Shown: one piece after another, positions 781-19,012 of the stretch
How positions within the stretch are numbered: position 1 is the stretch's first letter
Layout of the letters: the number at the start of each line of letters is the position of its first letter
Translations under genes and position numbers: made by a program
Assembly (NCBI GenBank): GCA_020629835.1
Contig: JAHDCO010000021.1
Coordinates: 21,926 to 61,001, forward strand
Direction of reading: 5' to 3'
Length of the DNA: 39,076 nt
Source of the DNA: Granulosicoccaceae bacterium
GTDB lineage: Bacteria > Pseudomonadota > Gammaproteobacteria > Granulosicoccales > Granulosicoccaceae
The notes under the pieces: model-generated
What the model saw: only the letters and a program-made list of their open reading frames with translations
Database searches by the model: none
What the model was told of the DNA's origin: nothing

Positions 781-916
781 GCTGGTATCGATCCTGAATA
801 GTGGGTGTAAAAACGCTTTACGCTTACGGTTTGTATTTACGTACAACACGCAAAAGGTTTGTGTGAATAAGAAAGGTAACGGTCTGCCATCTTAATAATA
901 GGAGAGCTTTGTCGCT

Positions 917-1891
917 GTGTATAAATACCGATTACATCAAGCGAGTTATCAGACTTACGCAGTGCACTTGCTTGCCATTTGTTTATTACTGGGTGCACTT
1001 TACTACCTCGGATTTCGTCCACTATCGGCACAGCCCTGGCCGTTAGCTCAGCTGGGTTTTGAACTGCATTGGAATGATTCCGTGACCCACGGTAGCTTTC
1101 CTTCATTGGCGCATGCACTTGCAACGTTTATCGCGATATTGGCGTGGCTGCGCGTGACAGGTGCATCGAATGCAGCAACGCTTCTGTGGGTAGCGGCTAC
1201 CTTATTCATGCTTCTCGCAGGCGAATGGTTCCTGGGTACGTTTTCAATTGTTGATGCGTTGATGGTTCTTCTCGCCTTGCCGATGGCACGTTTCTTAACC
1301 AACCGTGGGTTACCTCTTGTAAAAACAAACCATGTAGTGGTTTACAAAAAAGGAGTTATCTCTTGCATCCTGTCGTTTTTTTCTCTGTTAAGCGTGGCTT
1401 GCTATTACGATGGTTACGGACTGGGTGAGTGTGCGCGATACGATAATGAGGGTAACTGTGTAGAACGGGTGATCTATGCTGACCCCGTGTACATGAGCTA
1501 CAACGAGTTACGTTCATCGGTTCGGCAAGAGGCGGTGAGGCCCCTGGATGATGTGGGGCGCATTTATGCGTACGAAAACTACTTATTTATCAATGAAAGA
1601 AATAAGGGCATTCATGTATTTGATAATGCGGATGCTTTTAATCCAAAACCACTTAGCTTTATTGCGATCCCCGGAAATTTAGACATTGAGATCCGTGGGG
1701 ACCGTTTGTACGCCGACAGCTTCATCGATTTAATCACCCTGGATGTATCGAACACCGCTGAGGTGAGTGTGATTGATCGGCAGCAAGATGTATTTATCTG
1801 GGATGCAGAACAAAATATTCCTTACAACGTTCGATTGAATTTTTCGCAAATTGATCGAACGCAGGGTGTTGTTATTGGCTACCAGGAGTGA
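917..1891 (+). CDS. Membrane protein fused to a lipoprotein-like, propeller-repeat C-terminal region
   Basis: The 324-residue frame has two unlike halves. Residues 1-130 hold about four hydrophobic helices (near 14-33, 64-80, 86-104, 109-127) with a GSFPSLAHALAT segment seen in some small uncharacterised membrane proteins. Residues 141-162 (VVYKKGVISC to SVAC) look exactly like a lipoprotein signal peptide ending at Cys162. The rest contains LVIVD-like propeller segments (ENYLFINERNKGIHVFDN, GDRLYADSFIDLITLDV). The start is a GTG at 917 with AGGAG about 12 bases upstream. A second product could start at the in-frame GTG at 1337, making a separate lipoprotein. The stop overlaps the ribosome site of the next gene, so the two are likely cotranscribed. 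Function unknown. Confidence 0.6.
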   Translation: MYKYRLHQASYQTYAVHLLAICLLLGALYYLGFRPLSAQPWPLAQLGFELHWNDSVTHGSFPSLAHALATFIAILAWLRVTGASNAATLLWVAATLFMLLAGEWFLGTFSIVDALMVLLALPMARFLTNRGLPLVKTNHVVVYKKGVISCILSFFSLLSVACYYDGYGLGECARYDNEGNCVERVIYADPVYMSYNELRSSVRQEAVRPLDDVGRIYAYENYLFINERNKGIHVFDNADAFNPKPLSFIAIPGNLDIEIRGDRLYADSFIDLITLDVSNTAEVSVIDRQQDVFIWDAEQNIPYNVRLNFSQIDRTQGVVIGYQE

Positions 1892-4257: not shown

Positions 4258-5280
4258 TTAGGCGGATGTTGTTTGGTTATTGGGGGCTGTGGAGTTGCGC
4301 ACGATTAAGGGGGCGTCGATCTTGATTTGCAAGGGCTCCAGGGCCTCTCCTTCAATTTGTGCAACGATAATCTCTACGGTTTTGGATACCATCTGATTAG
4401 CACGCTGGCGAACGGTGGTCAGGCTATACGCGGGCCAGCTTGCGATGGGTACATCATCGTATCCCACAATCGATACATCGCCGGGTATGGATAAGCTCAT
4501 TTCATGTCTTAAGGTATCCATAACACTGAATGCCATATGATCATTGGCGACAAAGATTGCGTCTGGCAAACCCTGTTCAACCAGTTGTCGGGTAGCCACA
4601 GCCGCACCTTCGTGTGTGAAATTACCTACCGCACGACCGAAGCATTGCATGTTGTGTTTCGTTAGCGCGGCGTTAAAACCTGCTTCACGATCAAACTGCG
4701 TGGATGCATACTCCCAGCCGGCTATGTAGCTTATGCGTTTATGACCCAACGATAAAAGATACTCGGCAACGGTATAACCGCCCGCGTAATTATCAGAAGT
4801 CACAGAAAATCGGGTTTTGTCGTTTTGTTCTCGATTGAAAAACACGATGGGGACACCCAATCGCTGACAGCGCTCAGCTAACTTTGCTGACATCGATACT
4901 GAGGCGGCGATAATGCCTTCCACTCGATAGTCCAGCATCTCATCCACGATATTGTCGACATTGCTGGCGTCTTTGCCTGCCATAAAAACCAGTAAGTGAT
5001 ACCCCTGGTCCTGCAGCACACTCGACAAGCGCTCAAGTGCATCGGGGTAGAACTGATTGTCCAGGTACGCAACCAGTAAACCAATGATGCGGCTTTTCCC
5101 GGATACCATGGCCCGGGCCAGAACGTTCGGCCGATAACCGAGCTCACTGGCTGCTTTGCGTACCTTTTCTGCCGTTTGTTTTGAAGCTGACGCACCTGGC
5201 GTGAATACGCGGCTTACCGCCGACTGGCTAACACCAGCTAAGCGCGCCACTTCCACTGAGGTGATCTTTGACTCGGGCAT
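4258..5280 (-). CDS. LacI-family transcriptional repressor
   Basis: The 340-residue protein has the classic LacI layout. The DNA-binding helix-turn-helix lies at residues 6-27 (TSVEVARLAGVSQSAVSRVF) and is followed by a hinge (LGYRPNVLARAMVSGKS) with the Leu-Ala-Arg that inserts in a central CpG in this family. A periplasmic-binding-protein-like sugar domain starts at about residue 60. Landmarks include FFNREQ, VFVANDHMAF and VSIVGYDDVP. The start codon overlaps the stop of the SDR gene (TGATG), so it lies inside the operon. The likely operator is the palindrome at 11792-11807, giving autoregulation. The effector is probably the imported compound or a breakdown product. Confidence 0.93.
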   Translation of the reverse strand: MPESKITSVEVARLAGVSQSAVSRVFTPGASASKQTAEKVRKAASELGYRPNVLARAMVSGKSRIIGLLVAYLDNQFYPDALERLSSVLQDQGYHLLVFMAGKDASNVDNIVDEMLDYRVEGIIAASVSMSAKLAERCQRLGVPIVFFNREQNDKTRFSVTSDNYAGGYTVAEYLLSLGHKRISYIAGWEYASTQFDREAGFNAALTKHNMQCFGRAVGNFTHEGAAVATRQLVEQGLPDAIFVANDHMAFSVMDTLRHEMSLSIPGDVSIVGYDDVPIASWPAYSLTTVRQRANQMVSKTVEIIVAQIEGEALEPLQIKIDAPLIVRNSTAPNNQTTSA

Positions 5281-6049: not shown

Positions 6050-7360
6050 TTAGCGTGCCGCTTCCCCGTAAGGCACATTCTTTTTACCGAAGCGCCTCAC
6101 TCGAACATTGCACTGTTCTGCGTGACCGACAAAACCTTCCAGCATGCACAGCCTGGAACCGTATTCACCAATCGTGGTTGCGGCTTCATCGGTGGTCACT
6201 TTCTGGTAGGAGTGAGTCTTTAAAAATTTACCCACCCACAGGCCGCCGGTGTAGCGGCCGGCTTTTTTGGTTGGCAGCGTATGGTTCGTACCTATAACTT
6301 TGTCGCCATTGGCGACGTTGGTTCTGGCACCCAGGAACAGTGCGCCGTAACAGGTCATATTTTCCAGGAACCAATCATCGCGGTCCGTCATAACCTGCAC
6401 GTGCTCCGAGGCGATATCGTCAGCCACAGCCAGCATTTCATCATAAGTGTCACAGACGATCACTTCACCGTAATCGCGCCAGCTGACGGAGGCAGTGTCT
6501 GCCGTGGGCAGTACCGTCAGTAGTCGATCGATTTCAGCCAGCGTTTCTTCTGCTAACGTTTTTGAATTGGTCAGCAGCACAGCCGGGCTGTTGTAGCCGT
6601 GTTCCGCCTGACCCAGTAAATCGGTCGCGCAGATTTCGGCATCAACGGTTTCATCGGCGATCACCATGGTTTCTGTGGGGCCTGCAAACAAATCGATACC
6701 CACCCGACCAAACAACTGGCGTTTGGCTTCTGCAACAAACGCATTGCCAGGGCCCACCAGTAAATGCACCGGATCGATGGTTTCGGTGCCAATGGCCATG
6801 GCACCGACAGCCTGGATACCACCGAGCACATAGATTTCATGAGCGCCGCCCAAGTGCATTGCGGCGATAACGGCAGGATTAGGTTCACCATTAAACGGTG
6901 GAGTGCAGGCCACAATGCGTGGCACGCCCGCGACTGCCGCGGTAGCCACGGACATGTGTGCAGAAGCTACCATCGGAAACTTACCCCCGGGTACGTAACA
7001 ACCCACCGATTGAACTGGGATGTTCTTATGACCCAGGATGACCCCAGGCAGTGTTTCTACCTCGATGTCGAGCATGCTATCGCGCTGAGCCTGGGCAAAG
7101 TTCTTTACTTGCTCCTGCGCAAACACCAAATCCGCCATATCGCGTTCGCTAACTTTCGCGATGATGTTTTGAATTTCATCATCGGTTAAGCGATAAGACT
7201 CTCGATCGTAGTTGTCAAACTTTACGGCCAATTCGTGAACGGCTTTGTCACCGTTTTGTTCGATATTCTTCAGCGTGTCAGCAACCACTGATGCGGTCTG
7301 CGCATCATCTTCTGCTCTGTCGGCTTCGGGCTTGCCACGCTTTAGATATTCAATAGCCAT
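6050..7360 (-). CDS. Histidinol-dehydrogenase-family enzyme, HpsN-like (sulfopropanediol 3-dehydrogenase type)
   Basis: The 436-residue protein has all catalytic features of the HisD fold. Predicted zinc ligands are Gln251, His254 (QAEHGYNSP), Asp353 ([13 protein letters not shown]) and His413 (EGFVGHAEQ); the catalytic pair is Glu319-His320 (ASEH). Enzymes of this fold oxidise a primary alcohol to a carboxylate in two NAD-dependent steps. The start MAIEYLKR, the [10 protein letters not shown] segment and the context argue for the HpsN-like branch rather than histidine synthesis: no other his gene is present, and it lies within an ABC-importer operon. HpsN acts on 2,3-dihydroxypropane-1-sulfonate, but other polyols are possible. 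The ATG at 7360 has GAGG about 12 bases upstream. Substrate identity is inference. Confidence 0.82.
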
Positions 7361-10712: not shown

Positions 10713-11765
10713 CTATCCGTCGACCCTTGCTCCGGTATCGGCCGTAAACCAATGACAGATATGTGAAGGAACGGACATCGAGACCGTGTCACCGATCTCC
10801 GCTCGATAGGTTTTGTCGGTCTTTACGCTGACCAACGCGCCACCCACTCGCACCGACACCATGGTGGCGTCACCGAGCAGTTCGATGGCATAAATAGGGG
10901 CGTTTATTTCGCCCTGGTTTCCTTCGGCTAACGCAGCATCTTCAGCTCTAAAACCCAGCGTCATCGGGCCATCGGGCTTGCCGACGTCAGGGATTTTTAC
11001 ATGCTCCGCTTCAAACACACCACCAGATACCCGGCCTTCTATAAGGTTCATCGCGGGGTTCCCGATGAAAGACGCCACAAATGTATTTGCGGGCGTGTCG
11101 TAAATTTCAGTTGGGCTGCCCACTTGCTGCACGACGCCGGCCTTCATGACGACCACGCGGTCAGCCAGTGTCATCGCTTCAATTTGGTCGTGGGTGACGT
11201 AAATCGTTGTCACGGCCAAGTCGTGGGTAAGGTTTTTTATTTGTGCGCGAGTGGAGACGCGCAGTTTTGCATCTAGGTTGGACAATGGTTCGTCCATTAG
11301 AAACACTTTGGGTTTACGCACGATGGCTCGCGCGAGCGCCACACGCTGACGTTGACCGCCTGATAGTTCTGCAGGCTTTCGCTGTAAAAAGTCGTCCAAC
11401 TCAACCATGGCGCTGGCTTTCATGACGCGATCATGGTGCGTATCGGGGTCGATGTTCCGAACTTTCAGCGGGAAGCGAATGTTTTCATACACATTCATAT
11501 TGGGATAGAGCGCGTAGCTTTGAAAAACCATGGCCACGTCCCGATCCTTGGGTTCCAGATCATTAACGACCTGATTATCGATTTTTATCTCCCCATCGGT
11601 GGCATCTTCGAGGCCAGCGATCATCCGCATGGTGGTTGTCTTGCCACACCCTGATGGACCCAGCAAAACCAGAAATTCTTTATCCGCGATGGTGAGGTCG
11701 AACTTGTTAACGCCGACGAAACTTCCCCAGCGTTTTGAGAGACCGTTCAGTTGTATTTCAGCCAA
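10713..11765 (-). CDS. ABC transporter ATP-binding protein, CUT1 (MalK/UgpC-like)
   Basis: The 350-residue ATPase has Walker A GPSGCGKT at 36-43, Q-loop FQSYALYP near 81-88, signature LSGGQ at 134-138, Walker B FLMDEP at 155-160 and the switch histidine in YVTHDQ. A C-terminal region of about 110 residues contains TOBE/MOP-like segments (LGFRAEDA, IELLGDATMVSVRVG), as in MalK and UgpC. It drives import through the MalF/MalG-like pair. It is the first gene of the operon, directly downstream of the promoter region with the LacI-type palindrome. A 107-base gap with no convincing terminator separates it from the binding-protein gene. Confidence 0.94.
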   Translation of the reverse strand: MAEIQLNGLSKRWGSFVGVNKFDLTIADKEFLVLLGPSGCGKTTTMRMIAGLEDATDGEIKIDNQVVNDLEPKDRDVAMVFQSYALYPNMNVYENIRFPLKVRNIDPDTHHDRVMKASAMVELDDFLQRKPAELSGGQRQRVALARAIVRKPKVFLMDEPLSNLDAKLRVSTRAQIKNLTHDLAVTTIYVTHDQIEAMTLADRVVVMKAGVVQQVGSPTEIYDTPANTFVASFIGNPAMNLIEGRVSGGVFEAEHVKIPDVGKPDGPMTLGFRAEDAALAEGNQGEINAPIYAIELLGDATMVSVRVGGALVSVKTDKTYRAEIGDTVSMSVPSHICHWFTADTGARVDG

Positions 11766-11888: not shown

Positions 11889-12917
11889 GTGTTGAATTAT
11901 CAAGCTGAGAAAGAGCTCGTCCGAGCATTTTATGAGGAGTTTGACGCAGCCGACCCTGACCAATTAAGTGACGTGCTGTCCGGATACACCAGTGAGGACT
12001 ATCGATGGCGTGGGTACTATCCGTTCGACAAGCTGACTAATGCAGAAGAGGTGGCAAAGGAGTTCTGGCAACCCCTTCGAGAGGCGTTGCAACCTGTCCA
12101 ACGGCGTATGGACATTTTCATGGCTGGATCAAACTCTTTAAAAAGTGATGCGCCGGACAACGACGACATATGGGTTGTCTCTATGGGGCATTTACTGGGT
12201 TTGTTTGATAAGGCCTGGCTCGGTATAGCGCCAACCAGAAAGATGGTCATGCTGCGCTATTGCGAGTTTCATCGGGTGTCACAGGGCAAGATCACCGAAA
12301 CAGCCATGTACTTTGATATTCCGCACTTGATGGCGCAAGCCGGTCTTAACCCTTTTCCAGATCAAACGGCAGCTCAGTTGGTTCAGCCGGGCCCCATGAC
12401 GCACACCGGGCTGATGTTCGATGAACAGGATCCAGAAGAGGGTAGAAAAACCCTCGCGGCCATTGACTACATGGTTGGCGAACTCAAATCATGGCGCGGT
12501 AGTGATCAGAGTGAGCCGTTGGTTGAAGAGTTGAGACGCAGTTGGAATGAAGACATGCTGTGGTGGGGGCCAACGGGTATTGGCGCGACTTACACCATAG
12601 AACGTTATGCAGAACAACACGCAGGTCCCTTTCGCACAGGGGTTAAAGATCGGACGTTTAACGGGCACGTGTGCCGAATGGCGGAAGGTGAATTCGGAGC
12701 GTTCTTTGGATGGCCGAATATGTACATCAAACCCGATGGGCTAATGGGTTATCCCAAAAGTGATAAATCTGGTGAGTTATGTGTGATCGATGTATACCGT
12801 CGTTCTGGCGATAAGCTAAGTGAAAACTGGATTTTTATCGATCTCTTAAAATTCTGGAAACAGCAAGGTATCGATGTACTGGCGGAAAAGCTCAACAGCT
12901 CACAAGCCTCAGGATAA
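11889..12917 (+). CDS. Double SnoaL/NTF2-like (polyketide-cyclase-like) protein
   Basis: The 342-residue protein appears to hold two NTF2-fold units. The first (residues about 5-150) starts with LVRAFYEEFDAADPDQLSDVLSGY and contains FHRVSQGKITETAMYFDIPHLMAQAG, a typical SnoaL-type end. The second (about 190-335) repeats the pattern with LRRSWNEDMLWWGPTGIG and ENWIFIDLLKFWKQQGIDVL. SnoaL-like proteins include ester cyclases, epoxide hydrolases and dehydratases, but the exact chemistry is not predictable. The start is a GTG at 11889 or a TTG at 11892, without a strong ribosome site. It is divergent from the importer operon across the palindromic operator, which suggests a shared role. Its end overlaps the convergent XdhC-like gene by nine bases. 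Confidence 0.75.
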   Translation: MLNYQAEKELVRAFYEEFDAADPDQLSDVLSGYTSEDYRWRGYYPFDKLTNAEEVAKEFWQPLREALQPVQRRMDIFMAGSNSLKSDAPDNDDIWVVSMGHLLGLFDKAWLGIAPTRKMVMLRYCEFHRVSQGKITETAMYFDIPHLMAQAGLNPFPDQTAAQLVQPGPMTHTGLMFDEQDPEEGRKTLAAIDYMVGELKSWRGSDQSEPLVEELRRSWNEDMLWWGPTGIGATYTIERYAEQHAGPFRTGVKDRTFNGHVCRMAEGEFGAFFGWPNMYIKPDGLMGYPKSDKSGELCVIDVYRRSGDKLSENWIFIDLLKFWKQQGIDVLAEKLNSSQASG

Positions 12918-13817
12918 AGCCCGATAGTGGATCAGTTCGGCCACGATGGAAATCGCAATCTCCGCAGAGGTACGGCTTCCGATCGGCATACCGACGGGCG
13001 CATTGATGCGTTCGAGCGACGCAGGGTTAGCGCCTAAGGCGGTTAATCGCTTAAGGCGTTTTTCGTGGCTTTTGTTTGAACCTAGTGCACCGATAAAACA
13101 GTGTGGGTTCTCCATGGCTTCCATCAGGGCTAGATCATCTAACGAAGGATCGTGTGTCAGAGTAACCAAGGAGAAGGGACCATCCAATGCATACGCTTTA
13201 ACCCCATCATCGGGCATTAGATCGAGGGGTAAAGGGGAGGCGAGTGGCCAACTGTCTCGGAATGAGGCCCGGGGTTCTATAACCACGACGTTGAAATCGG
13301 CTGCCGCCGAGAATTCGGTGCAGTAACGTGCTAACTCGTTAGCACCAATCAAAATCAATGTGTGGGTTGAGCCCAGTGGATTGATCAAGGTATGTTCGTC
13401 AAACGTAAAACTGTCTTCAGTGACGGCTTTTCGAATCGTTACAGCACCCGAACCCAATTCCACCTGGCGAACCGTACGTTGGTTGTTTTGCAGCTGCTCT
13501 AGAAGTTCAGGCAAACGGGACTGTTTAGTAACCGGTTCAACCAAAAGCGTCATGCGGCCACCACACAATAAGCCATGTTGTTTGGCTTCTTCATCGGTGA
13601 TGGTAATAGATAGCGTAGCCGTGCTGTTTTCTGCACGCTGTTCAGAAACCAGATACTTCTCAACGCATCCACCGGATAAGGACCCGACCATTAAACCATC
13701 GTCCCGGATGGCAGCCATACTGCCCACGGGACGGGGTGAGGATCCAAAGGTGGATGCAACGGTAGCCAGGTCCACGCGGTAGCCTGCTTCCATCCATAAG
13801 ATGGCTTGGCGTACCAC
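12909..13817 (-). CDS. XdhC/CoxI-family protein (molybdoenzyme maturation-like)
   Basis: The 302-residue protein has the XdhC N-terminal domain (residues about 5-80) with ATVASTFGSSPRPVGSMAAI and the conserved LSGGCVEKYL. A Rossmann-like C-terminal domain (about 145-295) contains LILIGANELARY, FSLVTLTHDPSLDDLALMEA and the end motif GMPIGSRTSAEIAISIVAELI. XdhC proteins bind molybdenum cofactor and help sulfurate and insert it in xanthine dehydrogenase-type enzymes. No such enzyme gene is visible within this window, so its client is elsewhere or it has a different role. The start is a GTG at 13817; an in-frame stop lies 24 codons upstream, so little room exists for a longer form. Confidence 0.85.
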   Translation of the reverse strand: MVRQAILWMEAGYRVDLATVASTFGSSPRPVGSMAAIRDDGLMVGSLSGGCVEKYLVSEQRAENSTATLSITITDEEAKQHGLLCGGRMTLLVEPVTKQSRLPELLEQLQNNQRTVRQVELGSGAVTIRKAVTEDSFTFDEHTLINPLGSTHTLILIGANELARYCTEFSAAADFNVVVIEPRASFRDSWPLASPLPLDLMPDDGVKAYALDGPFSLVTLTHDPSLDDLALMEAMENPHCFIGALGSNKSHEKRLKRLTALGANPASLERINAPVGMPIGSRTSAEIAISIVAELIHYRALS

Positions 13818-13837
13818 TTCCAGTGCACTGTTAGCGA

Positions 13838-13955
13838 TGTTGCTTCTCCACGGCTTTGGATACTAGCGGACGCGGCTGGGTGCACAGCCGGGCATCCTCC
13901 ATGATGCCCTTTTTATCAATGCCGAGTAAGTCCGCTACGTGTTGATAACCGGCAG
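13838..13955 (-). other. Intergenic stretch with an open frame lacking a start
   Basis: Between the lipoprotein and XdhC-like genes a minus-strand frame stays open (stop at 13838-13840) and would read PCSLCHSLTAGYQHVADLLG, then MEDARLCTQPRP, including a CxxCH motif. There is no ATG, GTG or TTG before the late ATG of MEDARL, so it is not a credible complete gene. The length is not unusual for a chance open frame. Confidence 0.2.
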
Positions 13956-15233
13956 TTAACGAGTGACAAAGACTACACGGTTCGGGTTTAATTCAGTGCG
14001 AACGCGTTCACCGACGACAGTATCGTCCGTTACGTTCACTCGATCAAATCCTGGCGAGGTGGCGTCTTTGATGCCGACCCATACTAATCCAGTAGGACCT
14101 ACAGCCATCGTGGTGATGTCCATACCTGTGAAATTTGCCAGCGGCGCGTCGGCAATTAAACCAGTGGTGGGGTTAAACGTGCGAATGTTTGATGAACCAA
14201 ACGACGCTGAAGATAGCAAGTAGCCTTTCTCTGCAGAAACGACTAACGCATCAGCAAAAAACTCTGGCATTGCATCATCGGCGGATACATCACCGTTGAT
14301 TTCATTGTCATCCAACAGTAGCTCGCTGGTGTAGTCCGTTGCATCAACGGATACCAAACCACCAGATAATTTTTCTGCGTTAGTTTTGTCGCTGTTGTAT
14401 CGGTCGCCAGCAGCTGTTATCAGAAGATCATTGGTATCAGCGTTGTAAGCCATGCCCTGTGCGTTTTGCACCGGTAATTCGATACCGTTCAAACCGTCGT
14501 TGCCCATGCCGGTATTGATTTCAACGGCTGTGTCACCACTGGTATCGAAAACTGCCACATAGCTCGGCAGCGTTGCACTGAAACTTTGCAATCGTTGCAT
14601 CAACACAAACAGTTTGTCATCAACCAAGGTAAGTGCGGTCATTTCAGTTGCGCCATCAGCATCATAAGCCGATAAGTCGATTTCAGCGGTCAGGAATTCG
14701 GCCTCAGTTGTGGCCGATGGATTTACTACCCAAATCGATGCGGTCCCATAACGCGCGATGTATGCGGTAGTTTCGTTTTTAAACACGACATCATGTGGGT
14801 TGGCCGAGCCACCGTTCACGCCGTTAAGTGAGTATTGATAATTGGCAGCGAGGCTCTCCTTATCGAACTGCGTAAATGAATCTAAGTTAAAGCGGCCTAG
14901 CTCGTACGCATTATTGCCGTCGGTACGCACAACAATATCTGACAAGGTCGCAGGAGTGCAGCCACTCAGATTAGGTGTGTCGCCAATGCTTATACGCTCC
15001 ACACGACCCGAACTGAAGTCCGTAGCTACTGTGGAAGTGAAAGCGAAGTTGGGAGCGGTGGCTGCTGTTGCAGCATCAGCTGCATTCGCACTTTCGCAGG
15101 TGGTGTAAATCGTCGTATCGGCGGCATCAACCATAGTGCCAGAATCATCGGAATCAGAGCTACAGGCGGCTAGGGTGCTGACCACTGCGCTTATTAATGC
15201 AAGTCGTGGTAAAGAGGCAGATCGAATTTTCAT
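13956..15233 (-). CDS. Outer-membrane lipoprotein with propeller-like repeats, next to BtuB
   Basis: The 425-residue protein starts with a lipoprotein signal peptide ending in LAAC, modified Cys24, then Ser-Ser, consistent with outer-membrane sorting. The mature part is acidic, low in cysteine, and repeats segments of the kind NPHDVVFKNETTAYIARYG, SIWVVNPS, TALTLVDDKLFVLMQ, VAVFDTSGD and NAQGMAYNADTNDLLITA, as in seven- or eight-bladed propellers. It lies 83 bases after the BtuB-like gene with no clear terminator between, so it should fall under the same cobalamin riboswitch. By analogy with BtuG of Bacteroidetes, a surface corrinoid-binding lipoprotein with a propeller fold, it may capture B12 for the receptor. 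That is inference; no sequence homology to BtuG is claimed. Confidence 0.7.
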   Translation of the reverse strand: MKIRSASLPRLALISAVVSTLAACSSDSDDSGTMVDAADTTIYTTCESANAADAATAATAPNFAFTSTVATDFSSGRVERISIGDTPNLSGCTPATLSDIVVRTDGNNAYELGRFNLDSFTQFDKESLAANYQYSLNGVNGGSANPHDVVFKNETTAYIARYGTASIWVVNPSATTEAEFLTAEIDLSAYDADGATEMTALTLVDDKLFVLMQRLQSFSATLPSYVAVFDTSGDTAVEINTGMGNDGLNGIELPVQNAQGMAYNADTNDLLITAAGDRYNSDKTNAEKLSGGLVSVDATDYTSELLLDDNEINGDVSADDAMPEFFADALVVSAEKGYLLSSASFGSSNIRTFNPTTGLIADAPLANFTGMDITTMAVGPTGLVWVGIKDATSPGFDRVNVTDDTVVGERVRTELNPNRVVFVTR

Positions 15234-15316
15234 AGGGTATCGGTTCTATTAAAGTAATCGCTTGAGCGAGGGGTTGTTCAGGGTTAGTTTTTAACCATGG
15301 TTACTCACTGAATCAT

Positions 15317-17389
15317 TTACATTCGATAAGTCAGTGAGAGATGGAAAGAGCGCCCGGGTTTAGGAAACCCGTTAAAGTCTTCAACGTTTTGATTCGTGAC
15401 GTTGTTTACGGTTAGAGCGCTTTGCCATCGTTTGCGTTGCCACTGCAAACCAGAATTCACCGTAGTGGAATCTGCAGCGGGTAAAAAATTGCCTAAATCG
15501 TAGTACCGTGATTGGCTAACTGTGAGTTCACTCCAAACGCGCCAATGATCAGAGAGTGCGAAGTTAGCTCGCGTGTAAGCGGCAAGTGCGGCCTGGTTCG
15601 GAAGTTGTTTATCAAAAAAGGCAGTGATGTCGGATTGGTTGCGAGCATCCTGAACGGTTAGGTTGGCTTGCAAGTTCAGTTTTTCGGTGGCACGCCATGT
15701 CACATTCCACTCAGCGCCAGTAATGGTTGCTTTACCGGTATTGGTGTTCCGGCCGGTTCCACGAGCGTCGTACACGGTCACAATGGCATCATCACGCGCA
15801 CTATAGAAAACAGAAAAAGCGCCTTTAAGTCTTGGTGATGCTGTCCATGCCACCCCAATATCGGCATTGATTCCCACTTCGGGTTTCAAATCCGCATTTC
15901 CAATCACCAAGCCTTGCGTGCCAAACAATTCATAAAAGGTGGGTACGCGATAATACTGGCCGACCGAACTGGTAAGACTGAAGGTTTCGTTTAAATCCCA
16001 TCGAAGCCCGATCTCCGGGTTGACGACAGACGTGGTCTGCGGGCTGTTATCAAACCCATTTAACGGATCGTCAAAGCGGCTGCGATGTTGTTCCAGTCGT
16101 AATTGCGGTGTTACCAACAACGCATCCTGCAAGAAGAAATGCGTGTAAGCGGCTCCGCCGGTTAGGCTGTCTCGAGAGGCATCAACCATAGAGCGTCTGC
16201 CAATGAGGTTTTCACTTTGAAATGCATCGTGACGCAGTTCAGCGGTGAATGCCCATTTGCCGGAGTGGGTGAATCGGTCCCAATAACTGGTCAGTCCGAA
16301 TACTCGTTGCTTACTTTGAAAGTCTTGAGCGCCTAAGCCGACCTGGGCTTGTGTATCGAGGTAATGATCATCCGCCCATTGCACAAACCCGGACTGACGA
16401 TGGCTCCACGCACCTAAAGATTGGCGTTCATAACTTGCGTGTATTTGACCTCGACCGTCATCGTACTGAGCTTGATTGTTGGCCCGATTACGCCATTCAG
16501 GAACCCCGGTGGTGCGTTGGGTATGTTGTAGCAACACGTCCGCTCGCTTCAACTCACTAAATTGGTAAGTGGTTTTACCGAGTATGGCCAGTTTTGTTGT
16601 ATCGGCGTTGTTACGTTTTTCCTTGCGATCATCGTCGGTATTCAGTGGCGTTCCGTTCGTATTGGTAAAACTGAAATCGTTTTGACTGTGGCCGACGTCC
16701 ACCGCACCCAGCATGCGCCAATGTTTGTGGGAACGCGTGTGAGATACATTCGCTTGAACGGTATTAAAACTTCCAACAGAAACTTTAATTTTTGTTCCGG
16801 GTACTCGTGTGCTTTTTGTGGTCAGATTTACGGCACCGCCTAAGTTACTGGCACCTAACTGCACTGGCGCGGAAGATCGATAGATATCCACACTTTCCAA
16901 TGATCGGGTGTCGAAGGTGGATAAATCGACAACTGCATTAGAGGCTCCGTTTAATCGAATACCATCTAAAAACACGGCAGTTTGTGAGGGGGTGGAAGCT
17001 CGAATGGTAATGTGGCTGAAACTGCCGTAGCCGCCGAGTTGTTTTTGTTGTACTCCAGCTTCGAACGCGAGGCTTTCCGACAGTTCGATATCCGTTCGCG
17101 CTAGTGCGTCACCTTGCACTCGCGTGAACTGCCCGGCAAAGTCCTCGTGCTGAATAGTACCCAGTGATGGCGTTTGATCTTTGCTGCCTTCGATCGTGAG
17201 TGTCTGCAACTGTTCAGCAGAGGTTGATTCGTCGGTATCACTTTGTGCAGCGACTTGAGTGGGCTTGGTAATGATAGGAACAATCAGGATGCTGACACAG
17301 CAGGCACGGTAAACATTGCCTGGACGGATTATCCGTCGATGCGCTTCGCGCGCGCAGCATGCTGCTGTATGTGGTGCCCAAAAAACCAT
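15317..17389 (-). CDS. btuB: TonB-dependent vitamin B12 receptor, BtuB-like
   Basis: The 690-residue protein is a TonB-dependent outer-membrane receptor. A hydrophobic signal segment (VSILIVPIITKPTQVAA, residues about 33-49) precedes a TonB-box-like LQTLTIEG. The plug domain (about 70-190) has DIELSESLAFEAGVQQKQLGGYGSFSHITIRA, TAVFLDGIRLN, SLESVDIYRSSAPVQLGASNLGGAVNLTTK. A 22-strand barrel follows with YRVPTFYELFG and NADLKPE, typical of BtuB/FepA. The start at 17389 gives a rather long n-region; GGGG precedes it. Corrinoid specificity is supported by the cobalamin riboswitch immediately upstream. It would import cobalamin or cobinamide across the outer membrane using TonB energy. Confidence 0.85.
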   Translation of the reverse strand: MVFWAPHTAACCAREAHRRIIRPGNVYRACCVSILIVPIITKPTQVAAQSDTDESTSAEQLQTLTIEGSKDQTPSLGTIQHEDFAGQFTRVQGDALARTDIELSESLAFEAGVQQKQLGGYGSFSHITIRASTPSQTAVFLDGIRLNGASNAVVDLSTFDTRSLESVDIYRSSAPVQLGASNLGGAVNLTTKSTRVPGTKIKVSVGSFNTVQANVSHTRSHKHWRMLGAVDVGHSQNDFSFTNTNGTPLNTDDDRKEKRNNADTTKLAILGKTTYQFSELKRADVLLQHTQRTTGVPEWRNRANNQAQYDDGRGQIHASYERQSLGAWSHRQSGFVQWADDHYLDTQAQVGLGAQDFQSKQRVFGLTSYWDRFTHSGKWAFTAELRHDAFQSENLIGRRSMVDASRDSLTGGAAYTHFFLQDALLVTPQLRLEQHRSRFDDPLNGFDNSPQTTSVVNPEIGLRWDLNETFSLTSSVGQYYRVPTFYELFGTQGLVIGNADLKPEVGINADIGVAWTASPRLKGAFSVFYSARDDAIVTVYDARGTGRNTNTGKATITGAEWNVTWRATEKLNLQANLTVQDARNQSDITAFFDKQLPNQAALAAYTRANFALSDHWRVWSELTVSQSRYYDLGNFLPAADSTTVNSGLQWQRKRWQSALTVNNVTNQNVEDFNGFPKPGRSFHLSLTYRM

Positions 17390-17433
17390 GATCCCCGACC
17401 TTCAAATCCCACCCGGATTGGGTCAAACAAACA

Positions 17434-17597
17434 TGATGGGCAGGTCTCCTGGCTTGTCACCAGCCCGATTCACCTTCCCGAGCATGTTTGCTCAGTGGCT
17501 TTTTCAATCGTGCTGTATTCATGACTTACAGTTGCGGGGGCAGCCGACGTATTTCACGTCGTTCCCTTTTCATCCCGGTACGTCGGGAACCTCATCA
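17434..17597 (-). promoter_or_regulatory. Cobalamin riboswitch (B12 box element)
   Basis: On the minus strand the sequence contains the hallmark elements in order. A GGGATGAAAAGGGAA segment comes first, then a GACGTGAAATACGTC hairpin, then CTGCCCCCGCAACTGTAA (complement of 17526-17543), and finally the B12 box AAGCCAGGAGACCTGCC (complement of 17439-17455). TGATG (complement of 17593-17597) can pair with CATCA (complement of 17434-17438) as helix P1. It lies 45 bases upstream of the BtuB-like start and presumably lowers expression when adenosylcobalamin is bound. Its 5-prime end overlaps the last 28 bases of the upstream oxidase gene. Confidence 0.93.
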
Positions 17598-19012
17598 GTG
17601 GTCGCAACTATAACACCGGGATTCATAGTGCCGCGCGGGTCAATGGAATTTTTTAGGGTTTTCATGAGTAATCTTTCGCACCGGTCGCGCGATCTGTCTG
17701 CAAGCGTCACTTTGCTACGTCCCAGGCCGTGCTCAGCTGCGATCGATCCATTGAACTCGACGACAGCGTCATACACAATGGCATTCAACTGATCTGCAGC
17801 CGCTAAGAATTCCGTCTCATCCTGAGTAGACGCTGGACTCAGATTGAAGTGCACATTGCCATCTGCCAGGTGGCCAAAAGGATTGATCAATTGGGCAGGG
17901 AATGCTTCCTGTAAGCGTTCAGTTGTTACTGAGATGAACTCTGACAGGGCTTGAAGCGGAACCGACACATCGTGTTTTAACTGGACGCCATGTCGCCTTT
18001 GACTTTCTGTGATGGATTCTCTGAGCTCCCATAAGTCGTTGCGCTGTTGCTCACTGCTTGCTTGAACGCCATCGGTTGCCCAGTCATTTTCGAGTGCTGA
18101 TGTCACTATGTTCTGCACCGCATCATCTAATGGAATTTGCGAACTGGGTGATTCGAACTCCAGTAGCAGTGTGATTTTGGCAACCTTTTCCAAAGGGTTC
18201 GCCACATGGGAACAGTGCGACGCTACTAAGTACAAGCCGGTTTCATCCATAAATTCAGCAGCGGATAAGAGCGCTCCGGCGATTCTGCGACCGTGACTCA
18301 CGATGTGCTGTGCCGATTCCAGTGTTGGACAGGCCAGCAGCAGGGTCTCGGTTTGATGAGGGCGAGGCTTGAGCTTTAACGTGGCGGCGGTAATGACCCC
18401 CAGCGTGCCCTCAGCACCGCAGAACAATCGACGCAGCGGATAACCCGCGTTGTCTTTGAGCATGGCCCGATTACCACGCCACACATCGCCTGACGGCAGA
18501 ACGACTTCCAGCCCGAATACGAGATCTGCCATCATGCCGTCTCTGAACGCATGGGTACCACCGGCATTGGTAGAGATGAGCCCACCGATTTGAGCAGATC
18601 CTCCCGAACCCAAGTGCATCGGCAGGGTGAGCTGATGCTGAGCACAAGCCTCCTGCAAACTGTTCAGAACAACGCCCGCTTCAACGCTGACGGTTTGGCC
18701 AACGACATCAATTGACCGGATGTCGTTTAACCTTTCCAAAGACAAGACCACGGCCCTCGCGTCAGTTTGGCGAGGCGTGCTAGCCAACACCAGGCCAGTA
18801 TTTCCTCCTTGCGGAGTCAGTGAAAGGTTGTGTTCTGCGCATAATCTGACAACGCCAGCTACTGCTTCGGTTGTGCCGGGTCTTGCAACACCGAGGGGTT
18901 TTGATGGCTCTTTTTTCAGCCAATCCTCTCCGTATTGCGCCGCATCATCCGATGTTAACCAACCGTTGGCTCCCAATAGCGACAGGAATGCTTGATCAAT
19001 TGGATGCGTCAT
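17570..19012 (-). CDS. FAD-linked oxidase, D-2-hydroxyglutarate/D-lactate dehydrogenase-like
   Basis: The 480-residue protein has the two domains of the GlcD/D2HGDH family. The FAD-binding domain (residues about 35-215) has LTPQGGNTGLV, GSGGSAQIGGLISTNAGG and GAEGTLGVITAATLKL. The C-terminal FAD-oxidase domain has NPFGHLADGNVHFNL, with metal-binding histidines, and AAEHGLGRSK near the end. These enzymes oxidise D-2-hydroxyacids to 2-oxoacids and pass electrons to a quinone or flavoprotein. The closing region EHGLGRSK and overall length fit D-2-hydroxyglutarate or D-lactate dehydrogenases, and I cannot separate these. It stands alone, divergent from the desaturase gene. Its 3-prime end forms part of the cobalamin riboswitch. 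Confidence 0.87.
   Translation of the reverse strand: MTHPIDQAFLSLLGANGWLTSDDAAQYGEDWLKKEPSKPLGVARPGTTEAVAGVVRLCAEHNLSLTPQGGNTGLVLASTPRQTDARAVVLSLERLNDIRSIDVVGQTVSVEAGVVLNSLQEACAQHQLTLPMHLGSGGSAQIGGLISTNAGGTHAFRDGMMADLVFGLEVVLPSGDVWRGNRAMLKDNAGYPLRRLFCGAEGTLGVITAATLKLKPRPHQTETLLLACPTLESAQHIVSHGRRIAGALLSAAEFMDETGLYLVASHCSHVANPLEKVAKITLLLEFESPSSQIPLDDAVQNIVTSALENDWATDGVQASSEQQRNDLWELRESITESQRRHGVQLKHDVSVPLQALSEFISVTTERLQEAFPAQLINPFGHLADGNVHFNLSPASTQDETEFLAAADQLNAIVYDAVVEFNGSIAAEHGLGRSKVTLADRSRDRCERLLMKTLKNSIDPRGTMNPGVIVATTDEVPDVPG

Follow-up and report, generated by a model that had tools for sequence, protein, structure and literature searches.

The window, the full 39,076-nucleotide stretch of Granulosicoccaceae DNA analysed here, carries on its minus strand a cobalamin riboswitch aptamer (RF00174; 17422-17610) in the leader of a btuB-like gene, which encodes a TonB-dependent receptor of 690 residues (15317-17389). 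After an intergenic gap of 83 bases (15234-15316), a second minus-strand gene, whose open reading frame spans exactly 13956-15233, encodes P0001, a BtuG-like beta-propeller lipoprotein of 425 residues; the plus strand of this interval, in the same frame, is full of stops. The riboswitch match is full-length (model positions 1-189), and its 112.3 bits (E = 1.5e-27) exceed the gathering score of 31.5. A scan of 13700-17700 detected no minus-strand terminator-like site in the gap and a weak one on the plus strand at 15261-15282. The original prediction had placed the lipoprotein gene directly behind btuB under the same riboswitch, with no terminator seen between them; its coordinates and layout are right, and the strand, which it left unstated, is the minus strand for both genes. 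This gene layout suggests that the receptor and lipoprotein genes would be co-transcribed in this organism.

Over its first 41 bases (17570-17610), the riboswitch match overlaps the 3′ end of an upstream GlcD-like gene, and the corresponding overlap in a related locus (L031) measures 36 bases. On the other side, the lipoprotein gene is followed after 138 bases by an XdhC-family gene in the same orientation (12909-13817), and one is found downstream in L031 too. Between the lipoprotein gene and xdhC, an open stretch of 42 residues (13834-13959, minus strand) overlaps the lipoprotein stop in another frame; none of the loci compared offers a convincing counterpart (best E = 0.31 outside its own copy).

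The receptor exceeds the Pfam cut-offs for both the plug (PF07715) and the barrel (PF00593) domains. Against the NCBIfam models it falls below the cut-off of the TonB-B12 model TIGR01779 (95.1 versus 599.7 bits), and siderophore-receptor models outscore TIGR01779 on it (127.7 and 108.4 bits). A Foldseek search with its structural model (pLDDT 90.5) placed BtuB1 and BtuB3 from BtuBG complexes in the first three ranks, the best match being BtuB1 of BtuB1G1, with XusA at rank 5. By Z score, BtuB1 and BtuB2 lead, tied with FecA, PqqU and Escherichia coli BtuB.

P0001 begins with a signal peptide that, on reading of the sequence, ends in the lipobox LAAC (15162-15233), with the codon of Cys24 at 15162-15164. 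The Cys24 column is 98% conserved among 45 aligned members of the family. The residues that follow, SSDSDDSG, open a low-complexity acidic linker (residues 24-61; 15051-15164), in which model confidence is low in the first part (pLDDT 49-55 over the first 20 mature residues). The beta-propeller domain occupies residues 62-425 (13959-15050), with strands running from mature residue 39 to 402. An AlphaFold2 model built from 71 sequences reached a mean pLDDT of 90.7 and a pTM of 0.89, and by our own reading of the strand list the propeller has seven blades.

Among 350,542 PDB chains searched with Foldseek, ranks 1-13 were all occupied by BtuG proteins of Bacteroides, the best being 8ptf, a structure with cyanocobalamin (E = 6.0e-14; TM 0.67/0.77). 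The propeller fold anticipated for this lipoprotein is thus borne out by a confident model whose nearest neighbours are BtuG. Rank 14 went to XusB, a siderophore-binding lipoprotein (E = 1.3e-10). Realignment of 977 chains again gave BtuG at ranks 1-11 (Z 30.2-31.4), followed by 6-phosphogluconolactonase-like structures (Z 28.1), with XusB at Z 25.9. BtuG leads the lactonase-like structures by a modest Z margin, and function does not follow from a common fold by itself. The propeller being nearest to BtuG and the receptor nearest to the BtuB of BtuBG complexes, the two proteins agree in pointing to a complex of this type.

With loops assigned by hand, the face carrying the B-C and D-A loops is singled out neither by conservation (0.536 versus 0.541) nor by charge; the bottom loops are, if anything, the more negative, the top loops lying below them in charge in 15 of 71 members. 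P0001 is acidic overall (charge -37), which is no pointer to a binding face. The protein contains two tryptophans only, both in strands by our own assignment, so that the tryptophan pair of the BtuG2 cavity has no evident counterpart.

Sequence comparison with BtuG gave a fainter signal. P0001 had no Pfam match at E = 1, a single-protein search against NCBIfam returned nothing useful, and a search of PDB sequences produced two matches only (E = 0.78 and 4.8), neither of them useful. A profile of 71 family members does match BtuG chains (E = 7.8e-4 to 6.6e-3), best within one stretch of 31-52 residues that corresponds to the conserved segment N145-P..KAY..RYG..WIVNPSA (14712-14801, minus strand). 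The same profile gives better scores to unrelated sensor-kinase propellers (4a2l, 1.5e-8; 3ott), which makes this link to BtuG weak by itself. An hhalign comparison with a piece of BtuG2 yielded a probability of 72% over 34 columns. For DUF5074 (PF16819), which we take to represent BtuG in Pfam, 6 of the 71 members give matches at E values up to 0.01; the best match checked (L070), at 26.6 bits, falls 0.6 bits short of the cut-off of 27.2, and P0001 itself does not reach it. A DUF5074 search of its own genome likewise left the lipoprotein gene unmatched. That genome holds a DUF5074 match elsewhere (L157; G000:C9:39346-39672), scoring 21 bits, below the cut-off, inside an open frame of 1805 codons. 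The similarity of the family to BtuG, as judged from sequence, is thus marginal, and since the DUF5074 cut-off is not reached either, formal membership in the BtuG sequence family is not established; what we propose instead is a protein that works like BtuG.

We surveyed the distribution and neighbours of the lipoprotein family. A single-protein search found matches in 46 of 143 genomes, its own included, and 46 places outside its own genome were examined, two of them in one genome. At 44 of these 46 places the gene is immediately preceded by a receptor gene in the same orientation, indicating that the pairing is more than chance; of the two exceptions, L037 sits at the start of a contig and L076 is a second, weak match. 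A cobalamin riboswitch accompanies 39 of the 46 places. Among the seven places lacking one, five have a receptor match that is cut by a contig end or starts within 319 bases of one, and the other two are again L037 and L076. The order riboswitch, btuB, propeller is conserved, and the association with btuB seen in the window extends to related genomes.

A first family alignment held no stretch conserved enough for searching; a closer alignment did, and with it a scan of genome contigs recovered 125 relatives, of which the best 80 were analysed as named loci. A single-protein scan of the same contig collection found no relative, and a search of plasmids gave no match to the protein. In 75 of these best 80 the receptor gene again lies upstream on the same strand, while of the remaining five, three start at the end of a contig and two have the genes in convergent orientation. 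By their titles, 25 of the 80 belong to Granulosicoccus or Granulosicoccaceae, 41 to Gammaproteobacteria or unspecified Proteobacteria (among them Marinobacter, Alcanivorax, Spongiibacter, Solimonas, Nevskia, Hahella, Pseudoalteromonas and Colwellia), 13 to Deltaproteobacteria or Desulfo- and Syntrophobacter-groups, and one to a Planctomycetota MAG; the complete genome of Desulfonema magnum (L131) is included. Within a sample of the class, a single-protein search placed the gene in 21 of 369 genomes, its own counted, a distribution that is patchy and not universal. A phylum-wide profile search matched its own genome only (1 of 398), a figure that may be an undercount given that at most four candidates were scored per genome among the genomes listed, and the samples of 398 and 369 genomes differ. 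Pairwise distances of propeller and receptor correlate across 52 loci (Spearman 0.50; permuted maximum 0.25), a correlation that shared species history explains and that we consequently do not use as evidence.

Twelve of the 80 named loci were tested with Rfam, revealing a cobalamin riboswitch in 11 and none in L146. Two of these loci (L117 and L148), from MAGs titled Deltaproteobacteria, are the convergent ones, and in both a cobalamin riboswitch precedes each of the two genes: at 6501-6704 (plus) and 10746-10969 (minus) in L117, and at 901-1088 (plus) and 4917-5124 (minus) in L148. The possession of its own riboswitch indicates that the propeller gene in these loci is under corrinoid control by itself. 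The convergent layout of L117 and L148 may trace to one event. In two further loci, the riboswitch preceding btuB has another cobalamin riboswitch shortly upstream of it in the opposite orientation (L140:139-259 and L150:201-389, minus), which suggests that corrinoids control a divergent gene there as well.

The membrane anchors of the family proved variable. Among the best 80 of 125 relatives, a simple pattern detected a lipobox in 64, with Gly (27), Ser (22), Asp (8) or other residues (7) at position +2; Asp at this position favours the inner membrane in E. coli. Fifteen members have no lipobox, two of them being cut at a contig start (L102 and L104), and one (L110) was left out of the count owing to a miscalled start. 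The absence is concentrated in Deltaproteobacteria, where 12 of 13 members have no lipobox and eight of those 12 carry a C-terminal CFI motif. Altogether, nine of the 15 members without a lipobox have the CFI motif near the C-terminus (L102, L108, L116, L122, L130, L131, L140, L150 and L152), a count that may include chance occurrences. L108 exceeds the cut-off of the NCBIfam model CFI-box-CTERM (1.4e-31), whose name we take to denote a surface-sorting signal; L130 exceeds that of choice-of-anchor U, and L140 and L116 match the short CFI motif with scores under its cut-off. These motifs suggest a possible swap of anchor inside one family. Single members carry Ig-like, PKD or Calx-beta domains next to the propeller, and DUF4465 was not matched in the 10 members that were searched with Pfam for additional domains.

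The genome that carries the window (assembly 97% complete) contains no cobalamin riboswitch match other than that of the window. Searches of it gave no match to CbiB and no full MetE, only a weak match over 78 positions. One cobalamin riboswitch, no CbiB and no full MetE together fit a B12 importer. MetH-like pieces are present separately, none over the cut-off; MetH appears split between two contigs (C18 and C15, L159), of which one matches its first part and the other two of its later parts. Granulosicoccus is mixed with respect to B12, as a kelp study reports btuB in seven of eight MAGs of the genus and the complete set of 22 synthesis genes in one (PMC9238374).

Collectively, these observations make it probable that the lipoprotein is a distant, BtuG-like corrinoid-capture partner of the BtuB-like receptor and that it functions like BtuG. 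The original prediction of such a partner gains support from a propeller whose nearest structures are BtuG, from the conserved order of riboswitch, btuB and propeller gene, and from the separate riboswitch of the propeller gene in two loci, with corrinoid binding itself expected by analogy. When corrinoid is scarce, the riboswitch would permit expression of both genes, as is typical of its class. The lipoprotein, tethered through Cys24 and a flexible acidic linker, would be held in the outer membrane and exposed at the cell surface. One face of the propeller could then bind corrinoids and hand them over to the receptor, which the propeller would probably cap as a lid. Counting against this reading are the marginal sequence similarity, a receptor that scores under the B12 cut-off, a face that is not singled out and the missing tryptophan pair, as well as the Asp at +2 in 8 of 64 members, the riboswitch-less locus L146 and the presence of the gene in only 21 of 369 genomes of the class. 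A broader proposal, for which we see about even chances, is that "pedal-bin" B12 transporters exist outside Bacteroidetes and are widespread in Pseudomonadota and Deltaproteobacteria, with the same propeller lid attached through an N-terminal lipid or a C-terminal CFI-type signal. If the lid can indeed be tethered either way, its mechanism would be independent of the lipoprotein-export route of Bacteroidetes.

The lipoprotein might alternatively bind corrinoids on the inner side of the outer membrane, facing the periplasm, where it would take them from BtuB after transport and pass them toward an inner-membrane importer. Gammaproteobacterial lipoproteins face the periplasm by default, our analysis identified no surface-export route (no control gave a signal in the Slam search), and the eight members with Asp at +2 among the 64 with a lipobox fit such a location. 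We nevertheless regard a periplasm-facing protein as unlikely, given that both partners are nearest to BtuBG complexes, whose lipoprotein lies outside, and that nine members lacking a lipobox carry, as sorted surface proteins do, the CFI motif, which in one of them exceeds the CFI-box-CTERM cut-off.

A different cargo would be implied if the pair worked like XusB and its receptor, importing another metal chelate, such as a siderophore, bound by the propeller. XusB directly follows BtuG in the Foldseek ranking, XusA stands at rank 5 for the receptor, and the siderophore-receptor models give the receptor higher scores than the B12 model. Against this stand the lower Z score of XusB relative to BtuG and the cobalamin riboswitches, which accompany the pair at 39 of 46 places and, in the convergent loci, precede both genes, leaving a siderophore-type cargo very improbable. 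Similarly improbable is a propeller with no corrinoid binding, acting either as a lactonase-like enzyme, as the position of 6-phosphogluconolactonase-like structures next after BtuG might suggest, or as a shield of the receptor against toxins or phages, BtuB doubling as a bactericidal-toxin receptor according to one report (PMC3050690), since BtuG stands above the lactonases in both structural rankings and a corrinoid riboswitch of its own in L117 and L148 would be unexpected for a shield.

The preferred reading, a corrinoid-capture partner resembling BtuG, touches on published statements about this protein class. BtuG homologues were described as exclusive to Bacteroidetes in 2018, on the basis of BlastP at 1e-10 across 313 gut strains (eLife; PMC6143338), and lipoprotein-capped transporters were described likewise in 2023 (Nat Commun; PMC10404256). 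Our findings are evidence against both statements. A literature search that covered few subscription papers or bioRxiv preprints found no paper on a proteobacterial BtuG counterpart. A partner of BtuG type that is conserved and linked to a riboswitch in Marinobacter, Alcanivorax, Pseudoalteromonas, Hahella and Deltaproteobacteria would extend the rule beyond Bacteroidetes, offer culturable organisms for tests and show one route of marine competition for scarce B12. It would also pose the question of what takes such a protein to the cell surface when the Bacteroidetes export signal is missing.

Two other known systems offer partial parallels. XusB of Bacteroides (PDB 9hqe, 9hqk), with its partner XusA, likewise combines a propeller surface lipoprotein with a TonB-dependent receptor; it ranks below BtuG in the structural comparisons with P0001, and we know of no cobalamin riboswitch for it. 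BtuH and BtuJ, which contain DUF4465, are extra B12-binding proteins of riboswitch-regulated loci; according to one study, DUF4465 is present in Pseudomonadota and other clades and adopts a jelly roll (PMC13398666), as opposed to the propeller found here.

The nearest solved structures are BtuG1-3 of Bacteroides thetaiotaomicron (PDB 8ptd, 8ptf, 8bmx, 8bmy, 8okv and 8blw) and 3dsm from B. uniformis. P0001 departs from them in its phylum and in its sequence, with 10-16% identity in structural alignment, and the tryptophan pair that lines the BtuG2 cavity is not evidently matched. The lipobox cysteine is followed here by an acidic stretch that may not act as the Bacteroidetes export signal, compared with MKWD in BtuG2 as given in the 2018 report (PMC6143338), and in eight Deltaproteobacteria members a C-terminal CFI motif stands in place of the lipobox. 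Common to BtuG and the protein of the window are the propeller fold, the lipoprotein signal, the btuB neighbour and the cobalamin riboswitch.
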